A stretch of DNA of 64,000 nt from contig NZ_UNRA01000003.1 in assembly GCF_900537075.1 (NCBI RefSeq), positions 1 through 64,000 of the forward strand. The letters are read 5' to 3'. The position numbers and the translations under genes were made by a program. Position 1 is the stretch's first letter. Each line of letters starts with the position of its first letter. A model generated the notes under the pieces. That model was not told the origin of the DNA and searched no databases. It saw only the letters and a list, made by a program, of their open reading frames with translations. Of the stretch, positions 35,333 through 56,375 are shown one piece after another. The stretch is from Tropicibacter sp. Alg240-R139. GTDB taxonomy: Bacteria > Pseudomonadota > Alphaproteobacteria > Rhodobacterales > Rhodobacteraceae.

Positions 35333-35408
35333 GCTCCCACCCGTCGTCAATTTTTCTGGCGAAAAACTTCCTCCCGTTGGGCCGCGCTGCGCGCGGCGCG
35401 TCACCGCA
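35333..35408 (+). repeat. Two-hairpin dispersed element, copy A
   Basis: Begins 11 nt after the stop of the EF-G-like gene. Layout: GCTCCCACCCGTCGT, hairpin 1 (TTTTTC tggc GAAAAA, 35351-35366), CCTCCCGTTGGGCC, then hairpin 2 (GCCGCGC tgc GCGCGGC, 35381-35397). Copies B and C share the linkers and the positions of both helices. It sits between convergent genes. Confidence 0.75.
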
Positions 35409-35449
35409 GAACGTCAGCGATCGGGATGTTTCGAAAGGGTGGCTTCGCC

Positions 35450-37030
35450 CTACCCCGCCGCCGCGATCAACTCGCGCGTGTAATCTGTTTGCGGAGACTC
35501 GAACAGTGCCTCGGACGGGCCCATTTCAATCACATCACCCTGTTTCATCACCATCACCTGATGCGACATGGCCCGGACCACTTTTAGGTCGTGTGAGATG
35601 AACAGATATGCCAGCCCGTATTTCTGTTGGAGGTTTCGCAGCAGCTCGACAATTTGCACCTGAACAGTCATGTCCAGAGCACTTGTCGGCTCGTCCAGCA
35701 CCAACAACTTGGGTCGTAACACCATAGCCCTGGCAATCGCAATCCGCTGGCGTTGCCCACCAGAGAACTCATGCGGGTAACGGTCCATTGCTGCGGGATC
35801 TAGTCCAGTTTCTTGCATCACTTCGGCCACCAGATCACGCGGCGCGCGGTGTGGATCGACGTTATGAACCGCCAGCCCTTCAGCAATGATCTGTGCGCAG
35901 GTCATGCGCGGGCTGAGCGATCCGAACGGATCCTGGAACACAATCTGCATATCCTTGCGCAGACGCCGCAGTTCGCGCGTGGACCACTTTCGCACGTCCT
36001 GATCGCGATAGGTGATGCCACCGTCAGAGGAGATAAGACGCATCAAGGCCAACGCAAGAGTCGTTTTACCTGAGCCGGATTCCCCAACGATACCAAGCGT
36101 CTCGCCAGCGCGAACGCTGATCGAGGCATCATTGACCGCCTTCACATGACCAACCGTCCGTTTCATGAACCCACGCTGGATCGGGAACCAAACGCGCAGA
36201 CCATTGGTATGTGCAATCACCTCTGCGTCACCGGCGATCGGTTCGGGAATACCCGACGGCTCTGCCGCCAACAGTTTCTGGGTGTAAGGATGTTGCGGGT
36301 TGTCGAAAATTTCGGATGTCGATCCGGCTTCGACAATCTCGCCGTCTTTCATGACGCATACCCGGTCCGCGATCCGCCGCACGATTCCCAAATCATGGGT
36401 GATAAAGAGCAATCCCATGTTTTCGGCCTTCTGCAAATCAGCCAACAGCTCTAAGATTTGCGCCTGAATTGTCACATCCAGTGCCGTTGTCGGCTCGTCT
36501 GCAATCAAGACATCGGGCTTGTTGGCCAATGCCATGGCGATCATCACCCGCTGACGCTGCCCACCCGAAAGCTGATGAGGATAGCTGTCTAGGCGGTCCT
36601 GTGGGTCGCGAATGCCGACTTTGTTCAACAGCTCGATAATGCGGGTCCGCGCCTCCGCTCCCGCCACGCCCTGATGCAAGGCCAGCGATTCCGCCATCTG
36701 CTTTTCGATCGTGTGCAGAGGGTTGAGCGAGGTCATCGGCTCTTGAAAGATAAAGCTGATGTCGTTGCCGCGCACCTGCTGCAGGCGCTGTTCATCGGCT
36801 CCGATCATCTCTTGCCCGTCATAAGTCACGGACCCTTCAACCTCGGCACTGCTACCCAGAAGCGAGACGGTCGACAACGCAGTCACCGACTTGCCCGACC
36901 CGGATTCGCCGACCAACGCCACAGTCTCACCCCGATCCACGGAAAAGGACACGCCCTTGACCGCCGGCGTAAGTTGACCATCCTGACGGAATGACACCCG
37001 CAGCCCGTTAACTTCCAGCAAGGCGCTCAT
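35450..37030 (-). CDS. yejF: Peptide ABC transporter ATPase, two fused NBDs (YejF)
   Basis: A 526-aa ATPase with two complete nucleotide-binding domains in one chain: Walker A GESGSGKS and GESGSGKTT, signatures LSGGQRQR and FSGGQRQR, and Walker B VLIADEPTT and LVLDEPTS. It powers import of oligopeptides through YejBE. The fused form is characteristic of YejF. Its start overlaps the yejE stop (ATGA). Copy A of the dispersed element lies just beyond its stop codon. Confidence 0.93.
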   Translation of the reverse strand: MSALLEVNGLRVSFRQDGQLTPAVKGVSFSVDRGETVALVGESGSGKSVTALSTVSLLGSSAEVEGSVTYDGQEMIGADEQRLQQVRGNDISFIFQEPMTSLNPLHTIEKQMAESLALHQGVAGAEARTRIIELLNKVGIRDPQDRLDSYPHQLSGGQRQRVMIAMALANKPDVLIADEPTTALDVTIQAQILELLADLQKAENMGLLFITHDLGIVRRIADRVCVMKDGEIVEAGSTSEIFDNPQHPYTQKLLAAEPSGIPEPIAGDAEVIAHTNGLRVWFPIQRGFMKRTVGHVKAVNDASISVRAGETLGIVGESGSGKTTLALALMRLISSDGGITYRDQDVRKWSTRELRRLRKDMQIVFQDPFGSLSPRMTCAQIIAEGLAVHNVDPHRAPRDLVAEVMQETGLDPAAMDRYPHEFSGGQRQRIAIARAMVLRPKLLVLDEPTSALDMTVQVQIVELLRNLQQKYGLAYLFISHDLKVVRAMSHQVMVMKQGDVIEMGPSEALFESPQTDYTRELIAAAG

Positions 37031-38133
37031 GAGAAAGTCTTTCTTGGATCAAACGCATCGCGCACGCCCTCAAAAATGAAGACCAGAAGCGAGAGCATGA
37101 TGGCAAAGGTGAAGAACGCGGTGAAAGCGAGCCAGGGCGCATTCAGGTTGTTTTTGGCTTGCAAGGTCAACTCGCCAAGCGAGGGGGCCGACGATGGCAG
37201 GCCAAAGCCCAGAAAGTCGAGCGAGGCCAGGCCACCGATGGTACCTGTAACAATGAACGGCATGAAGGTCAGCGTCGCGACCATGGCATTGGGCAGCATG
37301 TGGCGGCGCATGATGGTGATGTTGCCCACCCCAAGCGCTTTGGCAGCTCGCACGTATTCCAGGTTCCGCGCGCGCAGGAATTCTGCGCGGACCACGCCCA
37401 CAAGACCGGTCCAACCAAACAGGATCATCAAGGCGACCAGCAACCAGAAACTGCGCCCCAGAATGGCGAACATAATGATGATGACATAGAGCGACGGGGT
37501 CGCAGACCAGATCTCGATCACACGCTGGAAGATCAGGTCTGTCCAACCACCGAAATAGCCTTGCACCGCACCTGCCACCACGCCCAGGATGCTGGCTACG
37601 CCAGTCACCAAAAGCGTGAACAAGATCGACAGGCGGAAGCCGTAAATCACCCGCGCCAGCACGTCGCGCTTGGCGCTGTCTGTACCCAGCAGGTTCTGGC
37701 CGTTGGGCGGCAGGGGGGCAGCGCCGGGACGGTCCACGGTGGTGTTGAACGAATAGGGAATCGGTGGCCAGATGGCCCAGCCTTTTTTGAACCCGTCGGC
37801 TTGGAACGTGCCTGCACTGATTTGTTCCAGCATTTCCTCGGGTTCGTCAAAGCAATCCTGCAGACCACCGCTGACGATCAAGCATTGCACCTCAGGGTCG
37901 CTATAGATCGCTTCGGTCTGGAAATCGCCGCCAAAAGCGGTCTCGGGATAGAAATTGAAGACCGGCGTGAAATACTCACCCCGGTAATTCACCAGGATCG
38001 GTTTGTCGTTAGCAATGAATTCGGCGAACAGCGACAGCGTGAAAATCACTGAAAAGAGGATCAGCGACCAATAGGCCCTGCCGTTCTTGCGAAAATTGCG
38101 CCAACGGCGTTGGTTTAGAGGGGAAAGTGCCAT
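37027..38133 (-). CDS. yejE: Peptide ABC transporter permease YejE
   Basis: A 368-aa inner-membrane permease (DppC-like) with a long periplasmic loop after the first helix and the EAA cytoplasmic loop EYVRAAKALGVGNITIMRRH. It pairs with YejB. Three nt separate it from yejB and it overlaps yejF. The N-terminal extension between helices 1 and 2, with FYPETAFGGDF, is typical of YejE. Confidence 0.93.
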   Translation of the reverse strand: MALSPLNQRRWRNFRKNGRAYWSLILFSVIFTLSLFAEFIANDKPILVNYRGEYFTPVFNFYPETAFGGDFQTEAIYSDPEVQCLIVSGGLQDCFDEPEEMLEQISAGTFQADGFKKGWAIWPPIPYSFNTTVDRPGAAPLPPNGQNLLGTDSAKRDVLARVIYGFRLSILFTLLVTGVASILGVVAGAVQGYFGGWTDLIFQRVIEIWSATPSLYVIIIMFAILGRSFWLLVALMILFGWTGLVGVVRAEFLRARNLEYVRAAKALGVGNITIMRRHMLPNAMVATLTFMPFIVTGTIGGLASLDFLGFGLPSSAPSLGELTLQAKNNLNAPWLAFTAFFTFAIMLSLLVFIFEGVRDAFDPRKTFS

Positions 38134-38136
38134 GAA

Positions 38137-39222
38137 TTACCCCTCGCGGCTTTCAAAGTCGATGCGCGGATCGACCAGAACATACATCAGATCCGACAGG
38201 ATGCCGACCACCAGGCTCATCAGGCCAAAGATGAAAAGTGTTCCAAAAATCACCGGATAGTCGCGCGCCACTGCCGCCTCGAAACCAAGCCGTCCAAGAC
38301 CATCGAGCGAGAAGATCGTTTCGATGATGATCGAGCCGGAAAAGAAAACGCCAATGAACACTGCAGGGAAACCCGCAATCACGATCAGCATGGCGTTGCG
38401 GAAGACGTGGCCATAAAGGACGCGGCTTTCGCTCAGCCCTTTGGCGCGGGCGGTCATGACATAGTGTTTCTTGATCTCATCCAGGAACGAGTTCTTGGTA
38501 AGCAAGGTCAGTGTCGCAAAAGCCGCGATGGTCGAGGCGAGCACCGGCAGCGCGATGTGCCAAAAGTAGTCGCCAATCTTGCCCAGCAGACTCAGGTCGT
38601 CAAAGTTGTCGCTGGTCAGTCCCCGCAGCGGAAAGATCTGCCAGTAAGAGCCACCGGCAAACAGCACCAGCAGCAGGATGGCAAACAGGAAGCCGGGTAT
38701 CGCATAAGCCACGATGATCGCGCCGCTGGTCCAGGTGTCGAAAGAAGATCCATCATGCACGGCCTTGCGAATGCCAAGCGGGATCGACACCAAATAGGCA
38801 ATCAAGGTGGACCACAGACCAAGCGAGATCGAAACGGGCATCTTTTCCAACACCAGGTCGATGACGCTGATCGAGCGGAAGTAGCTCTCGCCAAAGTCCA
38901 GCGTCATGTAGTTGCCCAGCATGGTCAGAAAGCGTTCAAGCGGCGGCTTGTCAAAACCGAATTCTTTCTCCAGCTCGGCAATAAATTCGGGCGGCAGGCC
39001 ACGAGCGCCGACGTATTCCTCGTTGGGCGCACCTGATTGTGTTTGCACGTCGTCGCCACCGCCAGCGAAGCCTTCGAACACATCACCACCGCCTTGCAGT
39101 TCAGCGATGATCTGTTCAACCGGGCCACCGGGGACGAATTGCACCAGCGTGAAGTTGACGATCATGATGCCCAGAAGGGTCGGGATCACCAGCAACAGGC
39201 GTCTTAGAATATAGGCTCCCAT
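38137..39222 (-). CDS. yejB: Peptide ABC transporter permease YejB
   Basis: A 361-aa DppB-like permease: start [23 protein letters not shown] loop [21 protein letters not shown] long periplasmic segment after helix 1 ([18 protein letters not shown]) distinguishes YejB from DppB. It lies 9 nt downstream of yejA. Confidence 0.93.
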
Positions 39223-39231
39223 GGGTCTGGC

Positions 39232-41169
39232 TTACCTCAACGCGCGGTCGGATTTCAGTTTGGCGGCCTTTTCGGCGTCATACCACCAGAAGTCCAGCAC
39301 ACCTACGGCATATTCCGGCAGGTTTTCGGGGTGATCGTATTGATCCCAATAGGCGACCCAGCTTTGGTCGTTGTACCATACTGGTACCATGATCCGCTCG
39401 TACCGTAGCGCACGGTCTAGCGCCTGCAGGGCTGCGGCCTCTTCCTCTTTGCTGGTCGTTACAAGCGAGTGCTCGATGATCGCATCCACGAGCGGGCTGG
39501 CCAGACCTGCAGGATTGAACAAACTAAACTCGGCCTCCCCGGATCCATACATCTGCATCAGACCGGTACCTGCAGACAGGAAAGCGCGGTAGTTGTCGAA
39601 CACTATGTCATAATCGCGTTCACGATTGCGCAATGTGTATTGCGCCGAGTCAACCTTATCAGGGCGGGCGTCCACTCCCATCGCCACCAAATTCTTGGCA
39701 AAGCCATCAATCACTGCGGTCAACGTTGGGGACGACGACGAAGGGTACGGGATTTCAATCACCAGCTTTTCGCCTTGGGCGTTCCGCCGCATGCCGTCAT
39801 CACCAACAGCCCAACCGGCCTCATCCAGCAGATTCATCGCCGTGCGCAGGTTGCGACGGTCATTCAGGCGCTTGGCGCGCGACTCGTGGGCACGCACGGA
39901 CGGTTCGGTCAGCATGTCAGCGGGTACCAGATCACCCAGAGACTTGAGCAGATCAAGTTCGGCGCCTTGGGGTACGTCTTGGGCCATATGCGGGGCATTT
40001 TCCACGAATGAATGACGCTGCTTGAACAGACCGTACTGAAGCGATTCATTAGTCCATTCGAAATTGAACGCCAGCGACAAAGCTTCGCGCACACGTTTGT
40101 CCTGCAGCGCTGGGCGGCCTAGGTTAAACACGAACCCCGTGGGCGTTGGCGGCGTCAGATCCGGGAGTTCCTCTCGCTTGACCCACCCTTTGGTTACAGC
40201 TGGAAAATCATACTCGGTCGCCCAGCGCTTGGAATTGCCCTCGGCACGGAAGGTGTATTCGCCCGCCTTGAATGCTTCGAACCCTGCAGTATCGTCGGCA
40301 AAATACTCGACCCGGATGGTGTCAAAGTTGTAACGACCCTTGTTGATCGGCAGATCCTTGCCCCAGTAGTCAGGGTTGCGCTTGTAAACGATACGGCGGT
40401 TCACATTGTAGCTGTCGAGCTGATAGGGGCCTGACCCCGGTGCCGCATCAAGGCGCGGTTCATCCAGCCGAGCACCGGTTTCTTCGTACCAAGCTTTGGG
40501 AAACACGGGAACACCCCCAGCCTGATCAATCAAGGAACGGCGTGAAATGCCGGTGGCAAAAGTGAATTTCACCGTGTGATCATCCAGTGCCTCAGCCGAC
40601 AGGATACGTTTCTTGACCGCCTGCGCATATGACGGCAGCCCCTGTTCCAGGAACAGGTTGTGGCTGAACACAACGTCATGCGCGGTCACTGGGGACCCAT
40701 CGGCAAACCGCGCTTCGGGGCGCATGTAGAATATGACCCAGGTTTTGCCCTCGTCATACTCCAACCTTTCGGCCAGCAGCCCATAACTTTCCCCGATCAC
40801 ATCTGCAGGCAAACCGCCCGCGGTGGCGGGCATCTCACCCAGCAGGCTCTCATAAACCATCCAGGAGTAGCGACCCGCCCGGCCCTTGCGGCTGTAGGGG
40901 TTCATCGAATCAAACGTACCCGGAGCAGACACCGCGATTTCGCCCCCCTTGGGTGCGTCGGGATTCACATAGTCGAAGTGTTCGAAATCCGGCGGGTAGG
41001 TCAAATCGCCAAAGAACGAATAACCATGGCTTTCGATGATTTTATCATCCTCGGCATGCGCCAGACCTGTGGCGGCAAGCAGTAGGCCAATCGACAATCC
41101 GATCGCTCCCAACACCTTTGGTCGAATGTCCATTTGGCGAATTCGGGTCGCGACGCGGGGCGGTGTCAT
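39232..41169 (-). CDS. yejA: Periplasmic peptide-binding protein YejA
   Basis: A 645-aa family 5 solute-binding protein with a signal peptide (LGAIGLSIGLLLAATGLAHA, cut after AHA). The mature part begins EDDKIIESHGYSFFGDLTYP, and LSLAFNFEWTNESLQYGLFK is typical of YejA-like proteins. In E. coli YejABEF imports microcin C and peptides; here general oligopeptide uptake is likely. The ATG at 41169 is supported by GGAGGT 8 nt upstream. First gene of yejABEF. Confidence 0.93.
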   Translation of the reverse strand: MTPPRVATRIRQMDIRPKVLGAIGLSIGLLLAATGLAHAEDDKIIESHGYSFFGDLTYPPDFEHFDYVNPDAPKGGEIAVSAPGTFDSMNPYSRKGRAGRYSWMVYESLLGEMPATAGGLPADVIGESYGLLAERLEYDEGKTWVIFYMRPEARFADGSPVTAHDVVFSHNLFLEQGLPSYAQAVKKRILSAEALDDHTVKFTFATGISRRSLIDQAGGVPVFPKAWYEETGARLDEPRLDAAPGSGPYQLDSYNVNRRIVYKRNPDYWGKDLPINKGRYNFDTIRVEYFADDTAGFEAFKAGEYTFRAEGNSKRWATEYDFPAVTKGWVKREELPDLTPPTPTGFVFNLGRPALQDKRVREALSLAFNFEWTNESLQYGLFKQRHSFVENAPHMAQDVPQGAELDLLKSLGDLVPADMLTEPSVRAHESRAKRLNDRRNLRTAMNLLDEAGWAVGDDGMRRNAQGEKLVIEIPYPSSSSPTLTAVIDGFAKNLVAMGVDARPDKVDSAQYTLRNRERDYDIVFDNYRAFLSAGTGLMQMYGSGEAEFSLFNPAGLASPLVDAIIEHSLVTTSKEEEAAALQALDRALRYERIMVPVWYNDQSWVAYWDQYDHPENLPEYAVGVLDFWWYDAEKAAKLKSDRALR

Positions 41170-41333
41170 CAGGCTCTACCTCCGTATGGGTCTGATTGTC
41201 TCGGGTGAAACATAGACCAATTTTTGTTGTTGCCAGCTAAAGGTCCAGCGGGGCGAGATTCAAGTTTAGAATGCGTGAACGCATTGTGAAGACACGTTCA
41301 TGTGGCAGGAACTTGCGAATTTTGCACCGCTAA

Positions 41334-41371
41334 AACAAAAAAACCGCCACCCAAGTGGGCAGCGGCTTTCA
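41334..41371 (-). terminator. Intrinsic terminator after cycM
   Basis: On the minus strand CCGCTGCCC pairs with GGGTGGCGG (GU pairs allowed), followed by TTTTTTTGTTTT. It ends cycM transcription before yejA, about 20 nt after the cycM stop codon. Confidence 0.88.
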
Positions 41372-41392
41372 AATTCTCAAGAAGAGCGGAGC

Positions 41393-41899
41393 TTAATTGT
41401 CTAGGCTATCCAGATAAGCGATCAGGTTGACCCGATCTTTTTGCTTTTTCAGGCCCGAGAAGCTCATCGAGGTGCCGGAAACATCGGCGCTTGGCTTGAT
41501 CAGGAAGGCATCCAGGGCCTCGGGGGTCCAATCGCCCCCTTTTGCCTGCATCGGGCCCGAGTAGCCAAAACCTGCAGACGACGCGACTGGACGGCCCACA
41601 ACGCCATACAGGCTTGGGCCAGTGCTGTTCACTCCGTCTTCCAACTTGTGGCAGGCCGAGCATTTCTTGAACACTTTGGCGCCCTTGCCCACATCGGCGG
41701 CCATCATCAACTCATCAAAGCTGACTTCTTCGCCCGTGGTGATTTCTTCGGCAGGCTGCTCGGTCTCGATCACGTACGAAGCTTCACCATGCCCCCCTAC
41801 GTTATAGATCATCATAGCGGCCCATTTGCCAAGAAGAAGCACCAGGAAGGCGCCAAGCAGGCCGGCTGCGGCCTTGGTAACTGTCATCGTGTCGAACAT
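41393..41899 (-). CDS. cycM: Membrane-anchored cytochrome c (CycM/c552 type)
   Basis: A 168-aa cytochrome with an uncleaved N-terminal anchor (AAAGLLGAFLVLLLGKWAAM) and one haem c site, CSACHKLEDG, then GPSLYGVVGRPVAS and a methionine-containing SGTSMSFSGL ligand region. Such proteins carry electrons from the bc1 complex to terminal oxidases. I start at the ATG at 41899 (MFDTMTVTKAAAG); an in-frame ATG 5 codons upstream is possible. Confidence 0.88.
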   Translation of the reverse strand: MFDTMTVTKAAAGLLGAFLVLLLGKWAAMMIYNVGGHGEASYVIETEQPAEEITTGEEVSFDELMMAADVGKGAKVFKKCSACHKLEDGVNSTGPSLYGVVGRPVASSAGFGYSGPMQAKGGDWTPEALDAFLIKPSADVSGTSMSFSGLKKQKDRVNLIAYLDSLDN

Positions 41900-42019
41900 T
41901 GATCGCGAGTCCATTTCAGCTGTCTGGGCGGGTGTCTAAGGCTTCCCCTTGCAAGAGGCAAGGTATAGACACCGCGACTAAACGCCCAATTCAACAACTT
42001 GTTGCACGGAAACCGACAA

Positions 42020-42853
42020 ATGACCAATCGCATTGCCTTTCAGGGAGAGCCCGGCGCCTACAGCCACGAGGCCTGCCGCGACGCACGCCCCGACATGGAG
42101 GCACTGCCGTGTCGCACGTTCGAAGACGTGATCGAGGCCGTGCGCACCGGCGAAGCAAAGCTGGCGATGCTCCCGGTTGAGAACACCACCTATGGTCGCG
42201 TGGCCGACATTCACCGCCTACTGCCACACAGCGGGTTGCACATCATTGATGAAGCATTCGTGCGCGTGCACATTAATCTGCTGGCTGTTCCCGGCGCAAA
42301 GCTGACGGACGTGACCGAGGCGCATTCGCATCTGGTGCTACTGCCGCAATGCGAAAAATTCCTGCGGGAAAACAACATCCGTGGCCGTGTCAGCCCCGAC
42401 AATGCCCGCGCCGCGCGTGAGGTTGCCGAGGCAGGTGACATGCAATCCGCCGCTTTGGCCAGCGAACTTGCAGCAGAGATTTACGGGTTGGACGTACTGG
42501 CCCGCCATGTCGAAGATCAAGGCGACAACACAACCCGCTTTCTTGTGATGTCGCCTGAAGCAGACGAATCACGTCGCGGCGATCAGGGCATGATCACCAG
42601 CTTTGTCTTTCAGGTCCGCAACATTCCGGCGGCGCTGTATAAGGCGATGGGTGGATTTGCCACCAACGGTGTCAACATGATCAAGCTGGAAAGCTATATG
42701 GTTGGTGGCCGTTTTACGGCAACGCAGTTTTATGCGGATATCGAAGGGCACCCGGATGATGCCAACGTCCGCCTTGCGATGGATGAACTCGGGTACTTCA
42801 CCACAAACGTCGAAATTTTGGGCGTCTACCCAGCCGCGCGTGAACGCCACTAA
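42020..42853 (+). CDS. pheA: Prephenate dehydratase
   Basis: A 277-aa monofunctional enzyme that turns prephenate into phenylpyruvate in phenylalanine synthesis. It starts MTNRIAFQGEPGAYSHEACR; the TRF motif is in DNTTRFLVMS, and a C-terminal ACT domain (SFVFQVRNIPAALYKAMGGF, MIKLESYMVGG) suggests feedback inhibition by phenylalanine. No chorismate mutase domain is fused. It is divergent from cycM. Confidence 0.95.
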   Translation: MTNRIAFQGEPGAYSHEACRDARPDMEALPCRTFEDVIEAVRTGEAKLAMLPVENTTYGRVADIHRLLPHSGLHIIDEAFVRVHINLLAVPGAKLTDVTEAHSHLVLLPQCEKFLRENNIRGRVSPDNARAAREVAEAGDMQSAALASELAAEIYGLDVLARHVEDQGDNTTRFLVMSPEADESRRGDQGMITSFVFQVRNIPAALYKAMGGFATNGVNMIKLESYMVGGRFTATQFYADIEGHPDDANVRLAMDELGYFTTNVEILGVYPAARERH

Positions 42854-42904
42854 CGTCTGAGCAAACGCCGGAGCGCGACACGCGCAACACTTTGCGAAAC
42901 TATG

Positions 42905-43372
42905 TCAGGTCAAGCGCGATTGCCGACGCTCGATCTCTTTTGCCATATCCGCCAGCCGCATTTTGAATCGCTTGTTCAGGTTACCGCGGGCCAACTTCAG
43001 AGATTGCAGGAACAAGCGCGCCGCCAAAGTGTTTGCCGACAGCTTGATGTCGACGCTCAACCGAGTTCGGCGTGGCGACAGCGCCAGCAGTTCGACTACG
43101 CAATCACCGTTGACCCCCTTGCTACGCGAATCGAACCGCATCAGCGATGGCTCTGTGAACTCCACCAGCGCTACCAGCATGTCGCGCGGCTTTCCACGCA
43201 GATTGAAGGACGTGTTCCACGCCAGACCTGCATCAACCGGCAGTGAGGAATCCACGCGCTGAACCTCGATTCCGCGGCGAATTGCTGAACGTTCAAAGCT
43301 CTCAAATTCCGAAACTGCAGCAAAGACATTCTCGATCGATGCCTCGATATCTTCTTTACCCGAAAACTGCAT
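42905..43372 (-). CDS. SRPBCC (START-like) family protein
   Basis: A 155-aa protein with the pattern of a polyketide-cyclase/START-like fold: an N-terminal strand and helix (EDIEASIENVFAAVSEFESF), a beta-rich middle and a long basic C-terminal helix (RGNLNKRFKMRLADMAKEIE). The family binds hydrophobic ligands; the ligand here is unknown. It follows nudC by 35 nt on the same strand, probably one transcript. Confidence 0.75.
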   Translation of the reverse strand: MQFSGKEDIEASIENVFAAVSEFESFERSAIRRGIEVQRVDSSLPVDAGLAWNTSFNLRGKPRDMLVALVEFTEPSLMRFDSRSKGVNGDCVVELLALSPRRTRLSVDIKLSANTLAARLFLQSLKLARGNLNKRFKMRLADMAKEIERRQSRLT

Positions 43373-43407
43373 GTCGCCCCATTGTACTTGTTTGCCAAAT
43401 TGTCGTC

Positions 43408-46515: not shown

Positions 46516-46556
46516 CGGATGGCTTGTCATTTCCCGCGCCAGATCCTATATCGGCG

Positions 46557-46654
46557 GTGAGAGGTTGGCGCGGGCGAGCGCCTCGCCAACCTGGTCAGGT
46601 CCGGAAGGAAGCAGCCACAACGAGCCCCGCTTGGGTCGATGTCCAGCCTCTCAC
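46557..46654 (+). ncRNA. ffs: Signal recognition particle RNA (4.5S type)
   Basis: The core GGTCAGGTCCGGAAGGAAGC followed by AGCC and, on the return strand, GGGTCGATGTCC is diagnostic of bacterial small SRP RNA. The terminal helix GTGAGAGG (46557-46564) pairs with CCTCTCAC (46647-46654), which sets the boundaries at about 98 nt. It binds Ffh and targets nascent membrane proteins. It lies 42 nt after the nucleotidase stop codon. Confidence 0.95.
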
Positions 46655-46706
46655 TTGATCCAGTGATGGATCGTTAGTTTGACCGCTTAGCCCTAGGAGG
46701 GACTTT

Positions 46707-46745: not shown

Positions 46746-46836
46746 ACTAAGGCTTTCCGTTTTTGCCTGACCCACTGACGCAGTCGCGCGCTTGGCCGCC
46801 ACTGTGGTATGTTTGCATTCTGCAACAGGTAGACCA

Positions 46837-47868: not shown

Positions 47869-47904
47869 CTGTTACGAGCGCGTCCCGCACCGGATGCGCC
47901 CGAA

Positions 47905-48768: not shown

Positions 48769-48861
48769 AATGCATCCTCCGACACGACTCCGGCATCTGG
48801 ACCGATCAGTCTAGTCACGTCACTGGACCATTTGGTCTAGAGATGTCAATATCTCCCTCAC

Positions 48862-49425
48862 ATGACCGAACGTCCGCTTCCAACCAAAGATCGCCTGATC
48901 CGGGCTGCTGCCGATCTGTTTCGGCGCAGCGGCTATCATGGAGTTGGCCTATCGGAACTGCTGAGCGCAGCAGATGCCCCCAAGGGATCGCTTTACCATC
49001 ATTTTCCGAACGGAAAGTCCGACCTGGCAGTGGCAGCGGCGACCTGGGCTTCGGACGAAATGCTGCGGATGATCGCAGCCTCGTTCGAACCGGCCAAGGA
49101 CTTCGAGGCTGGCACCCGGACCTTGTGCCACAAGGCTGCCAAAATGTTCGACAAATCCGGCCAATGGGACGGGTGCCCGATCTCGGCGACGCTGTTTGAA
49201 GGCCCCGGCAACACGGATTTTCGCCAGCATGCCCACCACCTGTACGAAGGCTGGATCACCGAGGTCACACATCATGCAGCCCAGTTGGGGGAACCCGATC
49301 CGCGCGAGACAGCTGACACGCTGTTCATCCTGCTGCAGGGCGGCTGGCAATTGGCTCGAGCCCGCCAAAGCTCAGACGAGCTACGCAAGTTACCTGATCG
49401 GTTGTTTGCGACCAAAACCAATTGA
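48862..49425 (+). CDS. TetR/AcrR-family regulator
   Basis: A 187-aa one-domain-pair repressor. The helix-turn-helix is SGYHGVGLSELLSAADAPKG with SLYHHFPNGKSDL following, close to the LmrA/YxaF subgroup. The C-terminal ligand domain includes a cysteine (DGCPISATLFEGPG). Probable local target is the divergent hydrolase gene; TGGACCATTTGGTCTAG near 48825 is a candidate operator (dyad GACCA..TGGTC). Confidence 0.88.
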   Translation: MTERPLPTKDRLIRAAADLFRRSGYHGVGLSELLSAADAPKGSLYHHFPNGKSDLAVAAATWASDEMLRMIAASFEPAKDFEAGTRTLCHKAAKMFDKSGQWDGCPISATLFEGPGNTDFRQHAHHLYEGWITEVTHHAAQLGEPDPRETADTLFILLQGGWQLARARQSSDELRKLPDRLFATKTN

Positions 49426-49458
49426 CGCGTACCCTGCCAAACCGTTAGCCATTTCGTG

Positions 49459-49637
49459 ATGGTTCCCGAGTCGCGCATGCGCGATCGGGATGAAAAGGGA
49501 ATACGGTGCGGCCCAATCCGGGGCCAAGTCCGTGACTGCCCCCGCAACTGTGAGCGGAGAGCGAAGCCGAAACACCACTGACCGCAAGGTTGGGAAGGTC
49601 GGCCAAGCGATGACCCGCAAGTCAGGAGACCTGCCAT
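49459..49637 (+). promoter_or_regulatory. Cobalamin (adenosylcobalamin) riboswitch
   Basis: Conserved B12 riboswitch segments occur in the right order: ATGAAAAGGGAATACGGTGC; CCGTGACTGCCCCCGCAACTG; TGAGCGGAGAGC; a P-loop-rich CCACTG; then GCGATGACCCGCAAGTCAGG and AGACCTGCC (the B12 box region). It precedes the gene at 49738 by about 100 nt. On binding cobalamin it would reduce expression of that gene. Boundaries are approximate. Confidence 0.95.
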
Positions 49638-49737
49638 CGGAACTGAAACTCGAACTCGGACGGGGTGTCCGGGCCGAATCGATGGCGTTCTGCCACCTTT
49701 TCCGGTCACATGCCCTGTTCCGCGCGGAGGGCGCAAC

Positions 49738-50136
49738 ATGATCTGGAAGACCAACACTCACCTGTTCACGGCAACAGTGTGCCAGCACACAGGCAAAACC
49801 TGCCCGGCAGTTCAACGCATGGCCGAAAAACTGTCGCAAGCCATGGAGGCGTCAAAACCCGTGACCTCGGATGATTTTGAGATCGCAGGCAACAGCGTGC
49901 TCAATCATTGTCCGATGGAGTGCCCGGCCAAGTTCGAAGCCAGCCACGACCGAATCCGCATTTTCTGTGGTGTGACACCCGAGGCCGAGACAGAAGACTT
50001 GAATCGCTTTGCGGATGCCTTGTTTGATCCGCACCCGCATCCCCTGACCTCGACGAGGTTCGAACGCCCATGCGCGATTGTCGAAGCTGAACCTGTGACA
50101 GTGCATCAACCGTTAGAGCAATACGCAACCTTCTGA
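49738..50136 (+). CDS. Cysteine-rich small protein under B12-riboswitch control, function unknown
   Basis: 132 aa. Cysteines at 15 and 22 (VCQHTGKTC, C-x6-C), 58 and 62 (NHCPMEC, C-x3-C), then C77 (RIRIFCGV) and C112, plus HPHP at 99-102. The paired spacing and alternating strand-helix pattern recall thioredoxin-like [2Fe-2S] ferredoxins and the predicted metal-binding DUF1636 family; this is inference. No signal peptide. A strong GGAGG lies 7 nt before the ATG. The cobalamin riboswitch upstream ties it to cobalt/B12 economy, possibly cobalt handling, corrin reduction or a B12-independent substitute. Confidence 0.75.
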   Translation: MIWKTNTHLFTATVCQHTGKTCPAVQRMAEKLSQAMEASKPVTSDDFEIAGNSVLNHCPMECPAKFEASHDRIRIFCGVTPEAETEDLNRFADALFDPHPHPLTSTRFERPCAIVEAEPVTVHQPLEQYATF

Positions 50137-50159
50137 TAAAAAACTCCGATCCCGGAAGA

Positions 50160-50237
50160 GCTCCCGCCCGTCGTCGATGTTTCTGACGAAACATCTCCTC
50201 CCGTTGGGCCCAGCCTCGCTGCGCTCGGCGGTTGGCG
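50160..50237 (+). repeat. Two-hairpin dispersed element, copy B
   Basis: Begins 24 nt after the cysteine-rich gene. GCTCCCGCCCGTCGT, hairpin 1 (GATGTTTC tgac GAAACATC, 50176-50195), CTCCCGTTGGGCC, hairpin 2 region (GCCTCGC tgc GCTCGGC, imperfect), then GGTTGGCG. The rest of the gap to 50419 shows no gene. Confidence 0.75.
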
Positions 50238-50419
50238 ATTGTGGCAAACCAAATGCCCCAAGCGGAACCGCGCCGAGCCGAAGGCAAGGCGCCCGGCCCA
50301 AAGCCGTTAGCGAGGCTGACGCAGTCAGGATCGCTCGGGTGCGGGAGCGCTACGAGTTTGGCGTGAGGCTCGACCCCTTCTGGGCCAAGAACTGCGGAAG
50401 ATACCGTCGACAGGGCGCT

Positions 50420-50923
50420 CTACTCCAGCACACGCACCATGCGGCCGGTTGATGCCCATTGCAGCTGCTCGTCCGTTTCAACCGCGCAGGGCCGCACCGA
50501 ACGAAGGCGCGCCAGGGCGTCGCGCGGCTTCTCTCCACATTCAATCATCAGACGCAGCGCAATCATGCCTGACCGCCCGCAGCCTCCTTTGCAGTGAACC
50601 AGAACGCGCCCACCACCGGACAGCGCTTGCCGCGCTGATGCGCTTGCATCAGGCCATTGCTCCAGAACATCCTGTCCAGGCACTCCAAAATCATCAATCG
50701 GCAGGTGCACCCAACGGCAGGCCCGCCCCTGAATATCCGCGCCGAAGTTACGGGCGCCGTGCTGCAACATCTCGACCTCTGTCGTCATCGACAGCACAAT
50801 TCCTGGCGCCCAGGAAGCGATCAGATCCAGATCCGTCCCATAGTCGCCATACCGGCCCGGCAGTGGGGAAATCGCCAAGGTGCCGCCGCCGACCTGCAAC
50901 GCGTAGATCACCATTTCCGACAT
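50420..50923 (-). CDS. Dual-specificity/tyrosine phosphatase-like protein
   Basis: A 167-aa phosphatase. The active-site loop is HCKGGCGRSG (HCx5R-S/T pattern, the nucleophilic cysteine in HCK). A general-acid candidate is the aspartate in LPIDDFGVP. Length and motif fit the small DSP/PTP-like group found in Alphaproteobacteria. The start at 50923 (MSEMVIYALQVGGG) is chosen; the frame stays open for 44 more codons over the dnaX upstream region, but without family similarity. It is divergent from dnaX. Confidence 0.82.
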   Translation of the reverse strand: MSEMVIYALQVGGGTLAISPLPGRYGDYGTDLDLIASWAPGIVLSMTTEVEMLQHGARNFGADIQGRACRWVHLPIDDFGVPGQDVLEQWPDASASARQALSGGGRVLVHCKGGCGRSGMIALRLMIECGEKPRDALARLRSVRPCAVETDEQLQWASTGRMVRVLE

Positions 50924-51093
50924 GACTTCCCCCAAGGAATTCAACAGGCTCAAACGTACAGCCAACAGATGCAATTCCAAAACTTGTACAGCCAGCCCGA
51001 CCAATTCCAAACGAAATTCGCGCACGGTGGCTGTGGACGCCGATGGCTGCGGCAACTACGCTACGGCTTCATGACGAATCCGGCAGAGCAGAT

Positions 51094-52854
51094 ATGACCG
51101 ACACAGCCCCCACCCCTTATCAGGTTCTGGCCCGTAAATACCGCCCTGAAACCTTTGCCGACCTCGTCGGACAGGACGCAATGGTGCGGACGCTGAAGAA
51201 CGCGTTTGAAGCGGACCGGATCGCCCAGGCCTTTGTCATGACTGGCATTCGCGGCACGGGTAAGACCACGACCGCGCGAATCATCGCCAAGGGCATGAAC
51301 TGCATCGGGCCGGATGGTCAGGGGCAGCCGACAACCGAACCTTGCGGCCAGTGCGAGCATTGCGTGGCCATCATGGAAGGTCGCCATGTCGACGTCATGG
51401 AAATGGACGCCGCCAGCCGCACTGGTGTCGGCGACATCCGTGAAATCATTGACTCGGTACGCTATCGAGCTGCTTCGGCCCGCTACAAGATCTACATCAT
51501 CGACGAAGTGCACATGCTGTCGACCAGCGCCTTCAATGCGTTACTGAAAACGCTTGAAGAGCCGCCCGCGCATGTGAAATTCATCTTCGCGACCACTGAA
51601 ATCCGCAAGGTTCCGGTGACGGTTCTGTCACGTTGCCAGAGATTTGATTTACGCCGGATCGAGCCCGAAGACATGATCGCGCTGATGCGCAAGATTGCCG
51701 GGGCAGAAAACGCCGAGATCACGGACGATGCATTGGCCTTGATCACCCGAGCCGCCGAAGGGTCGGCGCGCGACGCCACATCATTGCTGGATCAGGCGAT
51801 CAGCCACGGCGCGGGCGAGACCACCGCTGATCAGGTCCGCGCCATGCTGGGTCTGGCGGACCGGGGCCGCGTATTGGACCTGATGGATATGATCTTGCGT
51901 GGCGATGCTGCAGGCGCGTTGACGGAACTCAGTGCGCAGTACGCCGAAGGTGCTGATCCTCTGGCCGTGCTACGCGATCTGGCGGAAATCACGCATTGGG
52001 TTTCTGTGGTCAAGATTACTCCAGATGCAGCCGAAGACCCCACGATCTCACCCGATGAGCGCACCCGTGGCGCACAGATGGCCGAAGCCTTGCCAATGCG
52101 CGTGCTGACGCGGATATGGCAGATGTTACTGAAAGCTCTGGAAGAGGTAGCAGCCGCCCCCAACGCCATGATGGCCGCCGAGATGGCGGTGATCCGTCTG
52201 ACCCATGTGGCTGATCTGCCCAGCCCGGAAGAATTGATCCGCAGGTTGCAGGACACACCACCTCCGCCGTCGCCGAACCCAGGCGGCGGAATGCCTGCAC
52301 CAGGGAACGGTGCACCTGTGGCAAGCCAGAGCGCAACGTCGGCCTACACCTCGGCCCCAATCGGCACAGGTGGCGGCGGAACGGCGACGGCGCTTGCGCA
52401 GGACACGGCGACGGCATTGGCGCGGTATCCGACATTTGAACACGTGGTGGAGTTGATCCGCACGCGGCGCGATGTAAAGCTGCTGGTGGACGTCGAAACT
52501 GGCGTGCGGCTGGTGGCCTATCAACCCGGACGGATCGAGCTCACCCCTTCCGAGGATGCACCCCGTGATCTGGCCGCCCGACTGGGCAGCAGACTGCAAT
52601 CCTGGACCGGCAACCGTTGGGCCGTGTCGGTTGTTTCAGACGGTGATGCACCCACGATCGCCGAATTGCGAGATGCGGCCGAGAATGCCTTGCGCAACGA
52701 AGCAGAGGCGCACCCATTGGTTCAGGCCATTTTTGCCGAATTCCCCAAAGCCAAGATCACCAACATCCAAACACCCGAAGACTTGGCCGCCAAGGTTGAA
52801 ACCGAAGCCCTGCCTGAGGTCGAAGATGAATGGGATCCGTTCGACGACGAATGA
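51094..52854 (+). CDS. dnaX: DNA polymerase III subunits gamma/tau
   Basis: A 586-aa AAA+ clamp-loader ATPase. Walker A GIRGTGKTTTAR, a zinc site CGQCEHC, Walker B IIDEVHML and sensor 1 FIFATTEIRKVP are intact. A proline/glycine-rich linker (about residues 390-440) leads to domain IV/V, ending EDEWDPFDDE. The start is the ATG at 51094 (MTDTAPTPYQVLARKYRPE). I saw no A6-type slippery site for a programmed frameshift. It heads dnaX-ebfC-recR. Confidence 0.95.
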   Translation: MTDTAPTPYQVLARKYRPETFADLVGQDAMVRTLKNAFEADRIAQAFVMTGIRGTGKTTTARIIAKGMNCIGPDGQGQPTTEPCGQCEHCVAIMEGRHVDVMEMDAASRTGVGDIREIIDSVRYRAASARYKIYIIDEVHMLSTSAFNALLKTLEEPPAHVKFIFATTEIRKVPVTVLSRCQRFDLRRIEPEDMIALMRKIAGAENAEITDDALALITRAAEGSARDATSLLDQAISHGAGETTADQVRAMLGLADRGRVLDLMDMILRGDAAGALTELSAQYAEGADPLAVLRDLAEITHWVSVVKITPDAAEDPTISPDERTRGAQMAEALPMRVLTRIWQMLLKALEEVAAAPNAMMAAEMAVIRLTHVADLPSPEELIRRLQDTPPPPSPNPGGGMPAPGNGAPVASQSATSAYTSAPIGTGGGGTATALAQDTATALARYPTFEHVVELIRTRRDVKLLVDVETGVRLVAYQPGRIELTPSEDAPRDLAARLGSRLQSWTGNRWAVSVVSDGDAPTIAELRDAAENALRNEAEAHPLVQAIFAEFPKAKITNIQTPEDLAAKVETEALPEVEDEWDPFDDE

Positions 52855-52974
52855 CCATCAGGGTTTCCACTAGTCATCTCAATCTGAACAACCAGAGTTC
52901 TCGAGCCCGCAACCCTTGCACACAAAGGGGACGGCCCGTATCTACGCCTCAACGCATTTGCTAGGAGACACGAC

Positions 52975-53319
52975 ATGCTCAAAGGACTTGGTGGCCTGGG
53001 CGACATGGCCAAGATGATGAAATCGGCGCAGGAACTACAGACCAAGATGACAGACATGCAGGACGAACTGCACAACGTCATGGTCGTCGGCGAATCCGGC
53101 GCGGGTCTGGTCAAGGCAACCGCTTCGGCCAAAGGCGAGCTCAAAGGCTTGGACATCGATCCGTCGATCTTTAACGGCGACGACAAAGAAGTGGTCGAAG
53201 ACCTAATCCTGGCCGCCATCAAGGACGCGCAGACCAAAGCCGCCGACAAAGCGCAGGAAGAGATGACCAAGCTGACCGAAAGCATGGGCCTGCCCAAGGA
53301 CGTCAAACTGCCGTTTTAA
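52975..53319 (+). CDS. ebfC: YbaB/EbfC nucleoid-associated protein
   Basis: A 114-aa DNA-binding protein that starts MLKGLGGLGDMAKMMKSAQE, with the typical VVGESGAGLVKATASAKGEL beta segment and a C-terminal helix (QEEMTKLTESMGLPKDVKLP). It commonly lies between dnaX and recR, as here. AGGAG precedes the start. Confidence 0.95.
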   Translation: MLKGLGGLGDMAKMMKSAQELQTKMTDMQDELHNVMVVGESGAGLVKATASAKGELKGLDIDPSIFNGDDKEVVEDLILAAIKDAQTKAADKAQEEMTKLTESMGLPKDVKLPF

Positions 53320-53339
53320 GTCGACCTGTGAATGAGGTA

Positions 53340-53359
53340 CGAGGGCGCCCGCGCCCTCG
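53340..53359. other. Perfect palindrome between ebfC and recR
   Basis: CGAGGGCGC (53340-53348) pairs with GCGCCCTCG (53351-53359) with only CC between. No T tract follows. Possible mRNA stability or processing element. Confidence 0.45.
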
Positions 53360-53410
53360 ACCTGATGCGCCTGACGCCCTAGACTGACACAAAACAACGG
53401 GCACGGGCAC

Positions 53411-54001
53411 ATGAGCAATTCAGACATCGACAACCTGATCGAATTGATGGCCAAGCTTCCCGGGCTTGGCCCACGCTCGGCCCGTCGCGCAGTGCTGCAC
53501 TTGATCCGCAAACGCGCTCTGTTGCTGACCCCGCTGGCCGACACGATCCAAACAGTCGCCGCCACCGCGCGCGAATGCCTGAACTGCGGCAATGTTGGCA
53601 CAACCGACATCTGCGAAATCTGCGTCTCGGAAAAACGCGCTACGGGCGAGTTATGTGTCGTCGAAGATGTGGCCGACCTTTGGGCGATGGAACGCTCGGG
53701 CGTGTTTCGCGGTCGCTATCATGTTCTGGGTGGTACGCTGTCGGCGCTCGACGCCATCGGACCTGAAGAACTACGCATCCCCCGTCTGATCGACCGAGTC
53801 ACCGGCGAAAACATAACCGAGGTGATCCTGGCGCTGAACGCCACGATCGACGGCCAGACCACCGCCCATTACATCGCCGACCTGCTTTATGGCCGTGTAC
53901 GCCTGACATCTTTGGCCCAAGGCGTACCCATCGGTGGCGAGCTGGATTACCTGGACGACGGAACAATCACCGCCGCCATGCAAGCTCGCAAGGAGCTTTA
54001 G
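53411..54001 (+). CDS. recR: Recombination mediator RecR
   Basis: A 196-aa protein of the RecFOR pathway that helps load RecA onto SSB-coated DNA. An N-terminal helix-hairpin-helix ([17 protein letters not shown]) is followed by a zinc finger [16 protein letters not shown] and a Toprim domain ([14 protein letters not shown]). The stop codon TAG overlaps the stop of the convergent exporter gene. Confidence 0.96.
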
Positions 54002-54846
54002 GCCGCTTCTCGCTGTGACCACAGGACAGCCACGCAGACTACGACCCCGCCAATCGCTGTCTGCACCGCCGGAACTTCGGCCAGAAAAACCCAGGCCAGC
54101 AGTGGCGCCAGTGGCATCTCGAGAGTGGAAATCAGCGCAGTTTGCGCAGGCGGCAGGCGCCGCGCGCCTTCGGCTAATGTGACCGACGCGACTGCAAAAA
54201 ACAGACCAAAGACCAGGGCAATACCAATCTCTGACAGGGGAACGGATAATGGATCGCCAAAGTTCGCGCCAAGTGGGACAAGAAACAGCGACGACATTGC
54301 AGCCGGAAACCCTGCGGGCGTGTCCGGCCAAATCCGGTAGATCACCATTATACCAGCCATCATCAGAGTCATCCAAAGGGCCAACAAATCGCCCGTCAGA
54401 TGACCGCTGACGCCCGAGCCCCAGAAGATCACCGCCACACCGCCACAGGTCACTGCACTGGCGATCAGGGTTTTCAATCCGGGCCGTTCGCCGATGAAGA
54501 TCCACGCCAGTGCTGCGGCCAGGAATGGCGACGCAGCATAGATCATCGACACATTAGCGACCGAGCTTAGCTTGAATGCTGGGATAAAGGCTGCCGTGCC
54601 TGCTGCCCCCAGGACGGCCACCGCCACAGATGGGCCACGAAAGACACGGACCTCTTCCCGCAATATCCCGCGCACGGCCAGATAGCACAGCGTAAATCCA
54701 GCAGCCGCAAGTCCTCGCCAAAACAAGATTTCCCATGCGCCCGCCGATACCCCCTTGGTGAAAATTCCCGCTGCACTGAATACGATGGCCGAGACCACCA
54801 CCAATCCAACTCCGGTGCTGCGTTGAATAGAAATTTGCTGTGTCAC
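53998..54846 (-). CDS. EamA/DMT-family exporter
   Basis: A 282-aa membrane protein with ten predicted helices in two EamA repeats ([38 protein letters not shown]). I choose a GTG start at 54846 because GGAGG lies 5 nt upstream; the frame is open to 54909. Its substrate is unknown. Second of three EamA proteins in the window. Confidence 0.85.
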
Positions 54847-55018
54847 ACGCCCCTCCGACTTTTGTAGGCCGGAAATACGACACCGCTCCTGACAGCTGTC
54901 TGTCAGCACTCTTGTTCGGCAACTGGTTGGGGCTCTGCTTCAACAAGCATAGTGGCCCTTACAGTATGACAAGCAACTACTGAAACCGGGCGTGCAAGAC
55001 ATCAATGCGCCTAAAGGC

Positions 55019-55414
55019 CTAGGGTTTGACTCCAATCTCAATCAGGTTGCCGTCGGGATCGCGAATGTAGACAGACATAATCGGGCTACTTGCTCCGGTG
55101 CGATCGACGGGACCATCTTCGATTGGAACCTCTAGCTGGAACAAGTGTTGGGTCCATTCATTGATCGTATGGTCCGTCAGAAAGCAAAGATCGGCTGACC
55201 CTGGTAAAGGATGCCGCGCCTTTGGATCAAAAGGGCGTTTAGCGGAGTGGAGATTAATCTTCTGCCGCCCAAACTTGAGCGCCGTTCGAGTAGAGCCATC
55301 AGCTGGATGAAACTCTTCGACCAAAAGTCCCAACACATCGGTATAAAACGCAACTGTTGCGGGGATGTCGGCAACGGTCAGAACCAGATGATCGAGCGAG
55401 GTGACAGAGGGCAT
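55019..55414 (-). CDS. VOC-family protein (glyoxalase/bleomycin resistance-like)
   Basis: A 131-aa single-unit VOC metalloenzyme fold: LDHLVLTVADIPATVAFYTD start with a metal-ligand histidine, and RDPDGNLIEIGVKP end with a ligand glutamate. Members include dioxygenases, isomerases and resistance proteins; the reaction here is unknown. It is divergent from the hot-dog dehydratase gene, which begins 38 nt away. Confidence 0.85.
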   Translation of the reverse strand: MPSVTSLDHLVLTVADIPATVAFYTDVLGLLVEEFHPADGSTRTALKFGRQKINLHSAKRPFDPKARHPLPGSADLCFLTDHTINEWTQHLFQLEVPIEDGPVDRTGASSPIMSVYIRDPDGNLIEIGVKP

Positions 55415-55452
55415 GCATTGTCCTTTGTGGTGATCCGCGTAAGGTGCCCGCT

Positions 55453-56259
55453 ATGACACTAGCTGACCAGCCCGAAATCCAAAACGACAGAATGGACCCT
55501 GCCCGCGCGCTGGCGTTCCAGATCGCTTTGGGGCAAGACCCTTCGATCGAGGCTGAAACACCCTTGCCTCCGTTTTTTCATCAGCTCTATTTCTGGACCC
55601 CGCGCCCGCCCAACGAACTTGGGCGTGATGGCCATCCGCAGGTTGGCGGTGGGCTGATCCCCGACATGGGATTGCCGCGCCGGATGTGGGCCGGAGGTCG
55701 TTTGACATTTTCGGCTCCTTTGCGGGCCGGGGTGGCGGCCGAGCGCCGTTCGACTCTGGAAAGCAAGACATCGAAGAAGGGGCGTACAGGACCGTTGGCA
55801 TTTGTCACTCTGCGCCATGACATCTGGCAAAACGGAGCTCTGTGTCTGAGCGAGTGGCAGGATCTGGTCTATCGCGAAGACCCCAGCAATGATGCGCCCA
55901 AGTCGACCGCGCCCCAAGCGCGCACGGACGAGACCGACATGCAAAAGGCCAGCTTCGATTCAACGTTCCTGTTTCGTTACTCAGCGTTAACTTTCAATGG
56001 GCACCGGATCCACTATGATCTGGACTATGCCCGTGAAGTTGAAGGATATTCGGGTCTCGTGGTGCATGGGCCGCTGCTGGCACAGAAACTGATGTTGCTC
56101 GCAACCGAAGTGATCGGACCATTGGCAGAATTTTCGTTCCGTGCGTCATCCCCATTGATGCATTTCGAGCAGGCAGAGTTTTGTCGAAACGGCAATGATC
56201 TTTGGGCGCGTGGCTCGGACGGGCGACTTTGCATGCAGGCGGTGGCGGTGGCTGAATGA
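55453..56259 (+). CDS. FAS1-like/MaoC-type hot-dog dehydratase
   Basis: A 268-aa double hot-dog protein (MaoC/HTD2 family). The C-terminal domain carries the hydratase motif FNGHRIHYDLDYAREVEGY (catalytic His), then GLVVHGPLLAQ. Related proteins act as mesaconyl- or itaconyl-CoA hydratases; the substrate here is not certain. The ATG at 55453 follows AAGGTG by 6 nt. Confidence 0.8.
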   Translation: MTLADQPEIQNDRMDPARALAFQIALGQDPSIEAETPLPPFFHQLYFWTPRPPNELGRDGHPQVGGGLIPDMGLPRRMWAGGRLTFSAPLRAGVAAERRSTLESKTSKKGRTGPLAFVTLRHDIWQNGALCLSEWQDLVYREDPSNDAPKSTAPQARTDETDMQKASFDSTFLFRYSALTFNGHRIHYDLDYAREVEGYSGLVVHGPLLAQKLMLLATEVIGPLAEFSFRASSPLMHFEQAEFCRNGNDLWARGSDGRLCMQAVAVAE

Positions 56260-56296
56260 AACCTAAATCGCGAAAGCGCGGCTAAGGTCTTTTCAT

Positions 56297-56375
56297 GCGC
56301 CAACCGCCGCGCGAAGCGCGGCCAGGCCCAACCGGAGGCGGCGGTCCGCATGGACCGTCAACGACGGGCGGGAGC
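56297..56375 (-). repeat. Two-hairpin dispersed element, copy C
   Basis: Minus-strand orientation, beginning 42 nt after the stop of the FAD oxidoreductase gene. GCTCCCGCCCGTCGT, hairpin 1 (CGGTCC atgc GGACCG, 56342-56357), CCTCCGGTTGGGCC, hairpin 2 (GCCGCGC ttc GCGCGGC, 56306-56322), GGTTGGCG. Linkers match copies A and B; hairpin 1 does not match in sequence but pairs perfectly. Confidence 0.75.

Follow-up and report, generated by a model that had tools for sequence, protein, structure and literature searches.

ERIC/IRU and other intergenic palindromes are imperfect repeats of 100-200 nt with an unknown mobiliser, and the bacterial interspersed mosaic elements (BIMEs) of E. coli serve as DNA sites for gyrase or nucleoid proteins. 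The role and origin of repetitive extragenic palindromic (REP)-like repeats in general are unsettled. In the sections of Bertels and Rainey (2011; PMC3116915) consulted, BIMEs and REPINs appear as many extragenic copies of two inverted palindromic units that surround a spacer and fold as one. REPIN populations persist for millions of years and are maintainable if each copy confers a benefit, according to the consulted part of PMC8049555. CGTC-tagged REPs are reported, in the portions of Di Nocera et al. (2013; PMC3733652) consulted, from all alphaproteobacterial orders, without a dedicated transposase and close to the 3' ends of convergent genes. Here we analyse an element present in three copies in a window of 64,000 nt (the whole stretch of DNA analysed: positions 1 to 64,000, forward strand, of contig NZ_UNRA01000003.1 from Tropicibacter sp. 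Alg240-R139, family Rhodobacteraceae), which forms a large repeat family with no REP-associated tyrosine transposase (RAYT) in the genomes richest in it. With moderate confidence, we read it as a REP/BIME-like palindromic repeat of part of the Rhodobacteraceae that acts as a bidirectional barrier at 3' ends.

ERIC/IRU resemble the element in size class, intergenic location and imperfect palindromy, and the branched architecture of the element sets it apart. The CGTC-tagged REPs, as the same portions of PMC3733652 present them, are likewise mostly alphaproteobacterial, extragenic and near 3' ends, between convergent or co-directional genes, occur in inverted pairs and lack a dedicated transposase; the element, too, has CGTC 5' of its hairpin 1. 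They differ in being 20-40 bp long, with stems of 8-9 bp that almost always start with AT pairs, whereas the element measures 130-240 nt when closed, has an outer stem, and its stem starts mostly with G-C followed by A-C/A-T. From BIMEs/REPINs as described in the consulted sections of PMC3116915, it differs in that its arms are usually unlike, its fold is a cloverleaf and not a single hairpin, and no RAYT gene was found in the two copy-rich genomes tested. No earlier description of the element was recognised, by title and opening lines of the abstract, in our searches of the open-licence PMC literature; Figure 2 of PMC3733652 could list a related Rhodobacterales family, and the consulted text of that paper names no Rhodobacter, Roseobacter, Ruegeria, Silicibacter, Phaeobacter, Paracoccus, Dinoroseobacter or Jannaschia.

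The original prediction, made on the window alone, described three copies with common linkers, a fully paired hairpin 1 with a 4-nt loop in each, and starts at short distances from stop codons. Re-reading of the window sequence bore out the positions, the linkers, the stems and loops, and the distances. Hairpin 2 of copy B had been called imperfect; copy B is in fact a full closed element with a second arm and an outer stem. The parts of the three copies are as follows.

35333..35413 (+): copy A, open form; head 35333-35383, tail end an estimate
35351-35366 (+): copy A, tip of hairpin 1, TTTTTC TGGC GAAAAA
35381-35397 (+): copy A, hairpin 2, followed by a short tail
50160..50348 (+): copy B, closed long form; head 50160-50210
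50176-50195 (+): copy B, tip of hairpin 1
50204-50302 (+): copy B, branched hairpin 2, closed by TTGGGCC/GGCCCAA
50309-50335 (+): copy B, hairpin of the second arm
50336-50348 (+): copy B, last strand, which closes the outer stem, CGGGTGCGGGAGC
56297..56375 (-): copy C, open form, with the tail GGTTGGCG
56357-56342 (-): copy C, tip of hairpin 1, CGGTCC ATGC GGACCG
56322-56306 (-): copy C, hairpin 2

Exact matches to both linkers occurred in the window only at copies A, B and C, and matches with up to 3 mismatches were no more frequent there than by chance. In the whole genome that holds the window (G000; 4.66 Mb, 14 contigs), the exact pattern gave 39 matches against 0 for a reversed control, and a covariance model of the 55-nt head gave 128 matches at E<=0.01, so that the three copies stand far above chance. 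Five further partial matches lie outside these 128 (C2:218970, C3:332236, C1:586668, C2:631616 and C2:486013), and the true copy number therefore exceeds 128. Three sister species yielded 125, 135 and 136 matches at E<=1e-4, and the sister species G001 gave 130 at E<=0.01. The model matched in 22 of 149 Rhodobacteraceae genomes, G000 and G001 among them, and in G000 only among 289 genomes sampled across the class, at least three of the other 288 being of the same family. All copy numbers are minimum values and absences carry limited weight, since at most 150, 38 and 19 candidates per genome were scored in the single-genome, family and class searches, respectively. A scan of 84,980 species genomes found at least 112 stretches with the element; among the 80 matches listed, 78 carried Rhodobacterales names and 2 came from one Nocardioides marinus record. 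Proteins on that contig (strain DP1N28-1, JAHVJD010000003.1; L277, L278) are up to 96% identical to those of the Rhodobacteraceae loci used here, the element loci of that family being the only ones compared, and the record is, to judge by its sequence, probably mislabelled or contaminated. Plasmid records gave 4 partial matches, none with annotated features beneath. G018 and G040 have several copies no more than about 150 bases from a contig end, a hint that longer repeats surround them.

The predicted two-hairpin unit turned out to be about half of the element: its REP-like kind and conserved structure hold, and the cloverleaf is larger. Seventy of the 128 copies in G000 are closed: beyond hairpin 2 they have a second arm and then a final strand that can pair with the start, so that three hairpins lie inside an outer stem, CTCCCGC/GCGGGAG. 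Two length classes stand out among them, 131 nt and 184-241 nt, besides three short copies of 83-95 nt. The remaining copies comprise 19 with another conserved tail (form II) and 39 other open forms, as assigned by motif matching with up to 6 errors. The form II tail, GCCGTCCGCAGGACGCAAGGCC..GGCCGCGCAG, is alike across genera (L177, L197, L217 and the form II copies of G000) and is possibly a third kind of arm. At L180, L183, L213, L226 and L450, a different recurrent gene-end motif, CCGGAGTATTTGG..AAGATGAAG, stands near the element or replaces it and is variably complete. In two-headed copies (L216 of Mangrovicoccus; L396 and L403 of G001), an inverted second head serves as the second arm, and closed copies fold as one unit, as do the inverted pairs of REPINs. 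Homology between the two arms of ordinary closed copies was not demonstrable: the likeness of arm A to reversed arm B was equalled by 68 of 2000 shuffles in full and by 973 of 2000 in the core, and it resides in architecture alone, apart from the few copies with two A arms. The closed copies have inverted ends; no closely related empty site, from which a target duplication of the MITE type could be read, was found.

Of the 70 closed copies of G000, 61 were predicted to fold into the outer stem and three or more branches, and 59 of the reverse strands folded alike. In other genera, the copies from the scan of species genomes and those used for the fold, context, GCGGGAG, hairpin-1, RNAalifold and terminator comparisons were found through exact linkers, so that linker conservation in them is imposed by the search. 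There, 26 of 27 closed copies folded in this way (two heads of one two-headed element both being counted), as did 25 of the 27 reverse strands and 14 of 27 controls with shuffled interiors and retained ends. GCGGGAG followed the head within 300 nt in 25 of 60 other-genus copies and in none of 60 upstream controls, the other six of the 66 having been dropped for short flanks or as repeats. RNAalifold predicted 28 pairs, 12 of them changed on both sides, from an alignment of 17 closed copies; 14 of these copies came from other genera and 3 from G000, and the 80-nt L254, one of 14 short closed copies found, was left out. The covariation score was 0.277, against 0.094 for shuffled and at most 0.066 for slid alignments, with the structure derived from the same alignment, which favours 0.277 over the slid versions. 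The outer stem was invariant here, both ends having been fixed by the search, and hairpin 1 was not predicted by RNAalifold on this alignment. GTTGGGC fits the attC R' consensus, which made an integron attC-like recombination site a candidate reading.

Over 116 distinct hairpin-1 inserts, some of them from the same genus, the mean folding energy was -8.9, compared with -4.4 for shuffled inserts and -4.9 with halves swapped. The outcome within single genomes was mixed: pairing reached 85% versus 76% for shuffles in G000 and 83% versus 70% in G001, above all shuffles in both. The linkers, which had been presented as conserved, have the predicted sequences and seem to form in part the lower, mismatch-rich stem of one long imperfect hairpin topped by hairpin 1, because four of six covarying position pairs share one pairing register. 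These six, ranked by mutual information among 242 distinct heads (with L183, one of 26 family loci, omitted), were led by 18-39, 16-41 and 13-44, followed by 17-39, 13-45 and 12-45, and none was equalled in 1000 shuffles. The commonest bases mismatch at 18-39 (C-T) and 12-45 (C-C), and an alternative register of GCCCGTCG with CGTTGGGC also pairs well by eye; both count against the lower stem. CGTC stands at head positions 12-15 and 15-18, and positions 12, 13, 16 and 18 covary with the other strand; the tag seems partly paired.

We then asked where the copies lie relative to genes. The genes and other features around the three window copies are listed below.

33370..35322 (+): elongation factor G-like gene; copy A begins 11 nt past its last base
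35450..37030 (-): ABC transporter ATPase gene, which converges on copy A from the other side
49443-49652 (+): cobalamin riboswitch, upstream of the 132-aa open reading frame (ORF) at 49738-50136
49738..50136 (+): short ORF of 132 aa without a Pfam match, before copy B
50420..51055 (-): dual-specificity phosphatase-like ORF of 211 aa (Pfam), convergent partner at copy B
55444..56259 (+): FAS1-like dehydratase-region gene, which converges on copy C from the other side
56417..57457 (-): FAD-dependent oxidoreductase gene; copy C begins 42 nt past its last base

The best GTPase-domain profile match of the 650-aa elongation factor G-like protein begins at profile position 73 of 188.

The 128 copies of G000 fell in 80 convergent, 39 tandem (22 forward, 17 reverse) and 3 divergent gaps, with 5 at the edges of stretches and 1 within a weak called ORF, as befits a high-copy extragenic palindrome; these counts are approximate, the home-made gene finder having missed both short ORFs at copy B and counted its gap as tandem. 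Convergent gaps thus hold 80 of 122 placed copies, against a share of roughly 15% in the intergenic bases of a 464-kb sample. The head starts at a median of 30 nt past the end of the same-strand upstream gene and within 100 nt in 91 of 106 cases. The 66 other-genus copies were placed similarly (32 convergent, 21 tandem, 4 divergent, 9 at edges), the convergent share being 32 of 57. The predicted location at gene 3' ends was therefore upheld within the genome and beyond it. There is no general orientation bias: in tandem gaps, closed copies pointed forward 9 times and in reverse 13 times, which rules out a strict head orientation for them. Open copies were forward in 13 cases and reverse in 4 (p=0.049), and may have an orientation bias.

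Convergent gaps with the element were poor in two-way terminators. A hairpin with a T-tract was present on both strands in 7 of 77 such gaps and in 15 of 37 gaps without the element (p=0.0002); for gaps of at least 100 nt the numbers were 7 of 75 and 10 of 20. Counted by strand, terminator-like sites occurred in 35 of 152 versus 33 of 74 (p=0.001). In other genera, two-way sites were found in 0 of 30 gaps with the element and 7 of 41 without it (p=0.018). Single-strand rates in element gaps (18/76 and 17/76) were close to the wrong-strand background of tandem gaps (22/115). Since these rates are near background and two-way sites are scarce, the element tends to sit where a two-way terminator is absent. 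It resembles intrinsic bidirectional terminators in lying between convergent genes and in its symmetric hairpins; it differs in mostly lacking an adjacent T-tract and in occupying gaps mostly without such terminators. A T-rich stretch (at least 5 T in 8) lay just past the 3' end of 5 of 70 closed copies and past the other end of 8 of 70, so that most of them do not show the GC hairpin plus T-tract of an intrinsic terminator.

Comparison with G001 showed that sites are largely inherited and that stems are exchanged between copies. Of its 130 copies, 96 were examined, and 86 of these matched a copy in G000: 79 agreed in position on both flanks, 1 on a single flank, and 6 were arranged otherwise, some with reversed heads (two of these at two-headed sites). 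The other 10 had no counterpart among the 128. Tail form was kept in 56 of the 79 same-site pairs, compared with about 36% expected by chance. Hairpin 1 at the same site was 72% identical, against 68% for random between-species pairs and 80% for upstream flanks, and was fully identical in 1 of 54 comparable orthologous pairs. Among 432 orthologous hairpin-1 pair positions, 263 were unchanged and 75 had changed and were paired in G000 and G001 alike, 69 of these with both bases altered. Stems of the TTTTTC/ATTTTC type occurred in 33 of 96 G001 copies and in 2 of 128 G000 copies. These observations suggest that short stretches are copied from one copy to another. Across genera, element-adjacent genes of other loci, some from the same genus, matched element-adjacent genes here in 37 of 236 cases, versus 21 of 612 for the remaining genes of those loci.

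One convergent gene pair was followed through the 149-genome sample, where the gene occurs in 37 genomes and 30 loci were read. The pair carries the element in G000, G001 and G041, in gaps of 174-244 nt. In G094 and G150, of other genera, it is separated by 25 or 36 nt that fold into a plain hairpin. In G089, G077 and G141, the gaps measure 68-99 nt and lack the element core, with terminator-like sites on both strands in G089 and on one strand in G077 and G141. At the other 22 loci, the gap exceeds 700 nt or no convergent partner is in reach.

On the basis of these results, we suggest how the element might work. In its complete form, of about 130 or 185-240 nt, the unit has a central hairpin flanked by two hairpin arms, with the outer stem closing the whole; many copies lack the second arm or have an altered one. 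Since the cloverleaf is the same on either strand, a single copy could act on transcripts from both directions. A stable structure after the stop codon would block 3'-to-5' exonucleases and read-through, perhaps with Rho, and the element would most likely form or protect the 3' ends of convergent genes, mostly in gaps without a two-way U-tract terminator. It could act on RNA or as cruciform DNA. Copies would spread today by gene conversion among themselves, and earlier by an enzyme since lost or yet to be named. The analysis itself establishes the repeat family, its predicted fold with covariation, where it lies, that sites persist between two species, that stems move among copies, and that two-way intrinsic terminators are scarce in its gaps, whereas barrier function, a part for Rho and the route of spread are inferred. 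The fullest version, possible but well short of even odds, is a portable cloverleaf, alike on both strands, that would terminate transcription from either direction with no U-tract and replace ordinary terminators between convergent genes, its stems being continually rewritten by copying among more than a hundred inherited sites.

Several observations count against a barrier function, and others weaken the argument from hairpin-1 covariation. Gaps with any terminator-like site did not differ significantly (29/77 versus 18/37; p=0.40 when 3 remnant gaps are dropped), nor did other genera counted by strand (10/60 versus 23/82, p=0.16), and the element-free control stretches were picked between known copies, not randomly. 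The 25- and 36-nt empty gaps of G094 and G150 are also without a T-tract terminator, so that the element is no simple replacement for one at this pair. No match was found in 127 of the 149 family genomes sampled, and Di Nocera et al. (2013), in the consulted part of PMC3733652, hold that the uneven spread of REPs excludes a general function common to all organisms. As to hairpin 1, its covariation inside one genome is less strong than a first look suggests, and 94 of the 169 changed orthologous pairs are unpaired in at least one species; the number of pairs changed on both sides was equalled by 9 of 500 shuffles in G000 and 220 of 500 in G001, and the pair-type count by 3 and 500 of 500, respectively. 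The original prediction had taken pairing kept despite sequence change as a sign of selection on structure. Structure is indeed kept while stems vary, but covariation of hairpin 1 alone is no proof of selection, because stems are exchanged between copies within a genome. Inside repeats, covariation can have either source, such exchange or selection; palindrome-templated mutation is a further process that could leave the arms complementary.

The strongest competitor, which we consider possible though clearly less probable than a 3'-end barrier, is a selfish miniature element of the REPIN/MITE type, mobilised by an enzyme that recognises single-stranded hairpins and left at gene 3' ends as the least harmful sites. 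It would account for the patchy distribution over genera, from 1 match to more than 100 per genome (with the best 38 candidates per genome scored in the family sample), for the inverted-pair architecture including two-headed copies, for stems held in common within species more than between them, and for the avoidance of divergent gaps. The enzyme expected on this account is not in evidence: the Y1/RAYT family PF01797 has no match in copy-rich G000 or G001, and of the 15 genomes among the 149 that have one, 4 belong to the 22 element-bearing genomes and 11 to the other 127, which gives no support to a RAYT association. Nor did four sister sites that lacked a listed counterpart in G000 (two from G001, two from G003) provide a clean empty site within the genus: one had a degenerate copy, another half a copy, the third a copy shortened by an internal deletion but with its outer stem intact, and the fourth was a locus whose flank is replaced in G000. 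Selfishness alone, moreover, predicts no shortage of two-way terminators.

A DNA-level site comparable to E. coli BIMEs, bound by gyrase or nucleoid proteins and relieving supercoils between convergent genes, appears unlikely. The conserved lower stem with its mismatches would then be a putative protein-binding site, in keeping with the occurrence of both orientations, the preference for convergent gaps and the likeness of the linker sequence in other-genus model matches; covariation that keeps pairing while sequence changes would be needless for double-stranded binding. Very improbable is a trans-acting or 3'-UTR-derived small RNA whose exposed CUCCUCC pairs with Shine-Dalgarno sequences: CTCCTCC is present in 91 of 128 G000 heads and 66 of 96 G001 heads, yet it is lost in several genera, copies lie in both orientations, and Rfam, which had no gathering-level match on the element in the window, gave down to E=5 on five copy-bearing loci a single match on a copy (L006; Pab19, E=2.3, 24.1 bits where the gathering score is 55), at chance level, so that no known RNA family was matched above chance.

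Between a 3'-end barrier and selfish DNA, the family, with its defined fold and inherited sites, offers natural experiments, in which the same convergent gene pair has either the element or a plain hairpin; it also trades off measurably against two-way terminators of the U-tract type. The question of mRNA 3'-end function versus selfish DNA is thereby testable in culturable marine bacteria. Elsewhere in the window, a Rhodo-rpoB RNA motif was located at 14919-15012 (-) and a bacterial small SRP RNA at 46558-46656 (+).

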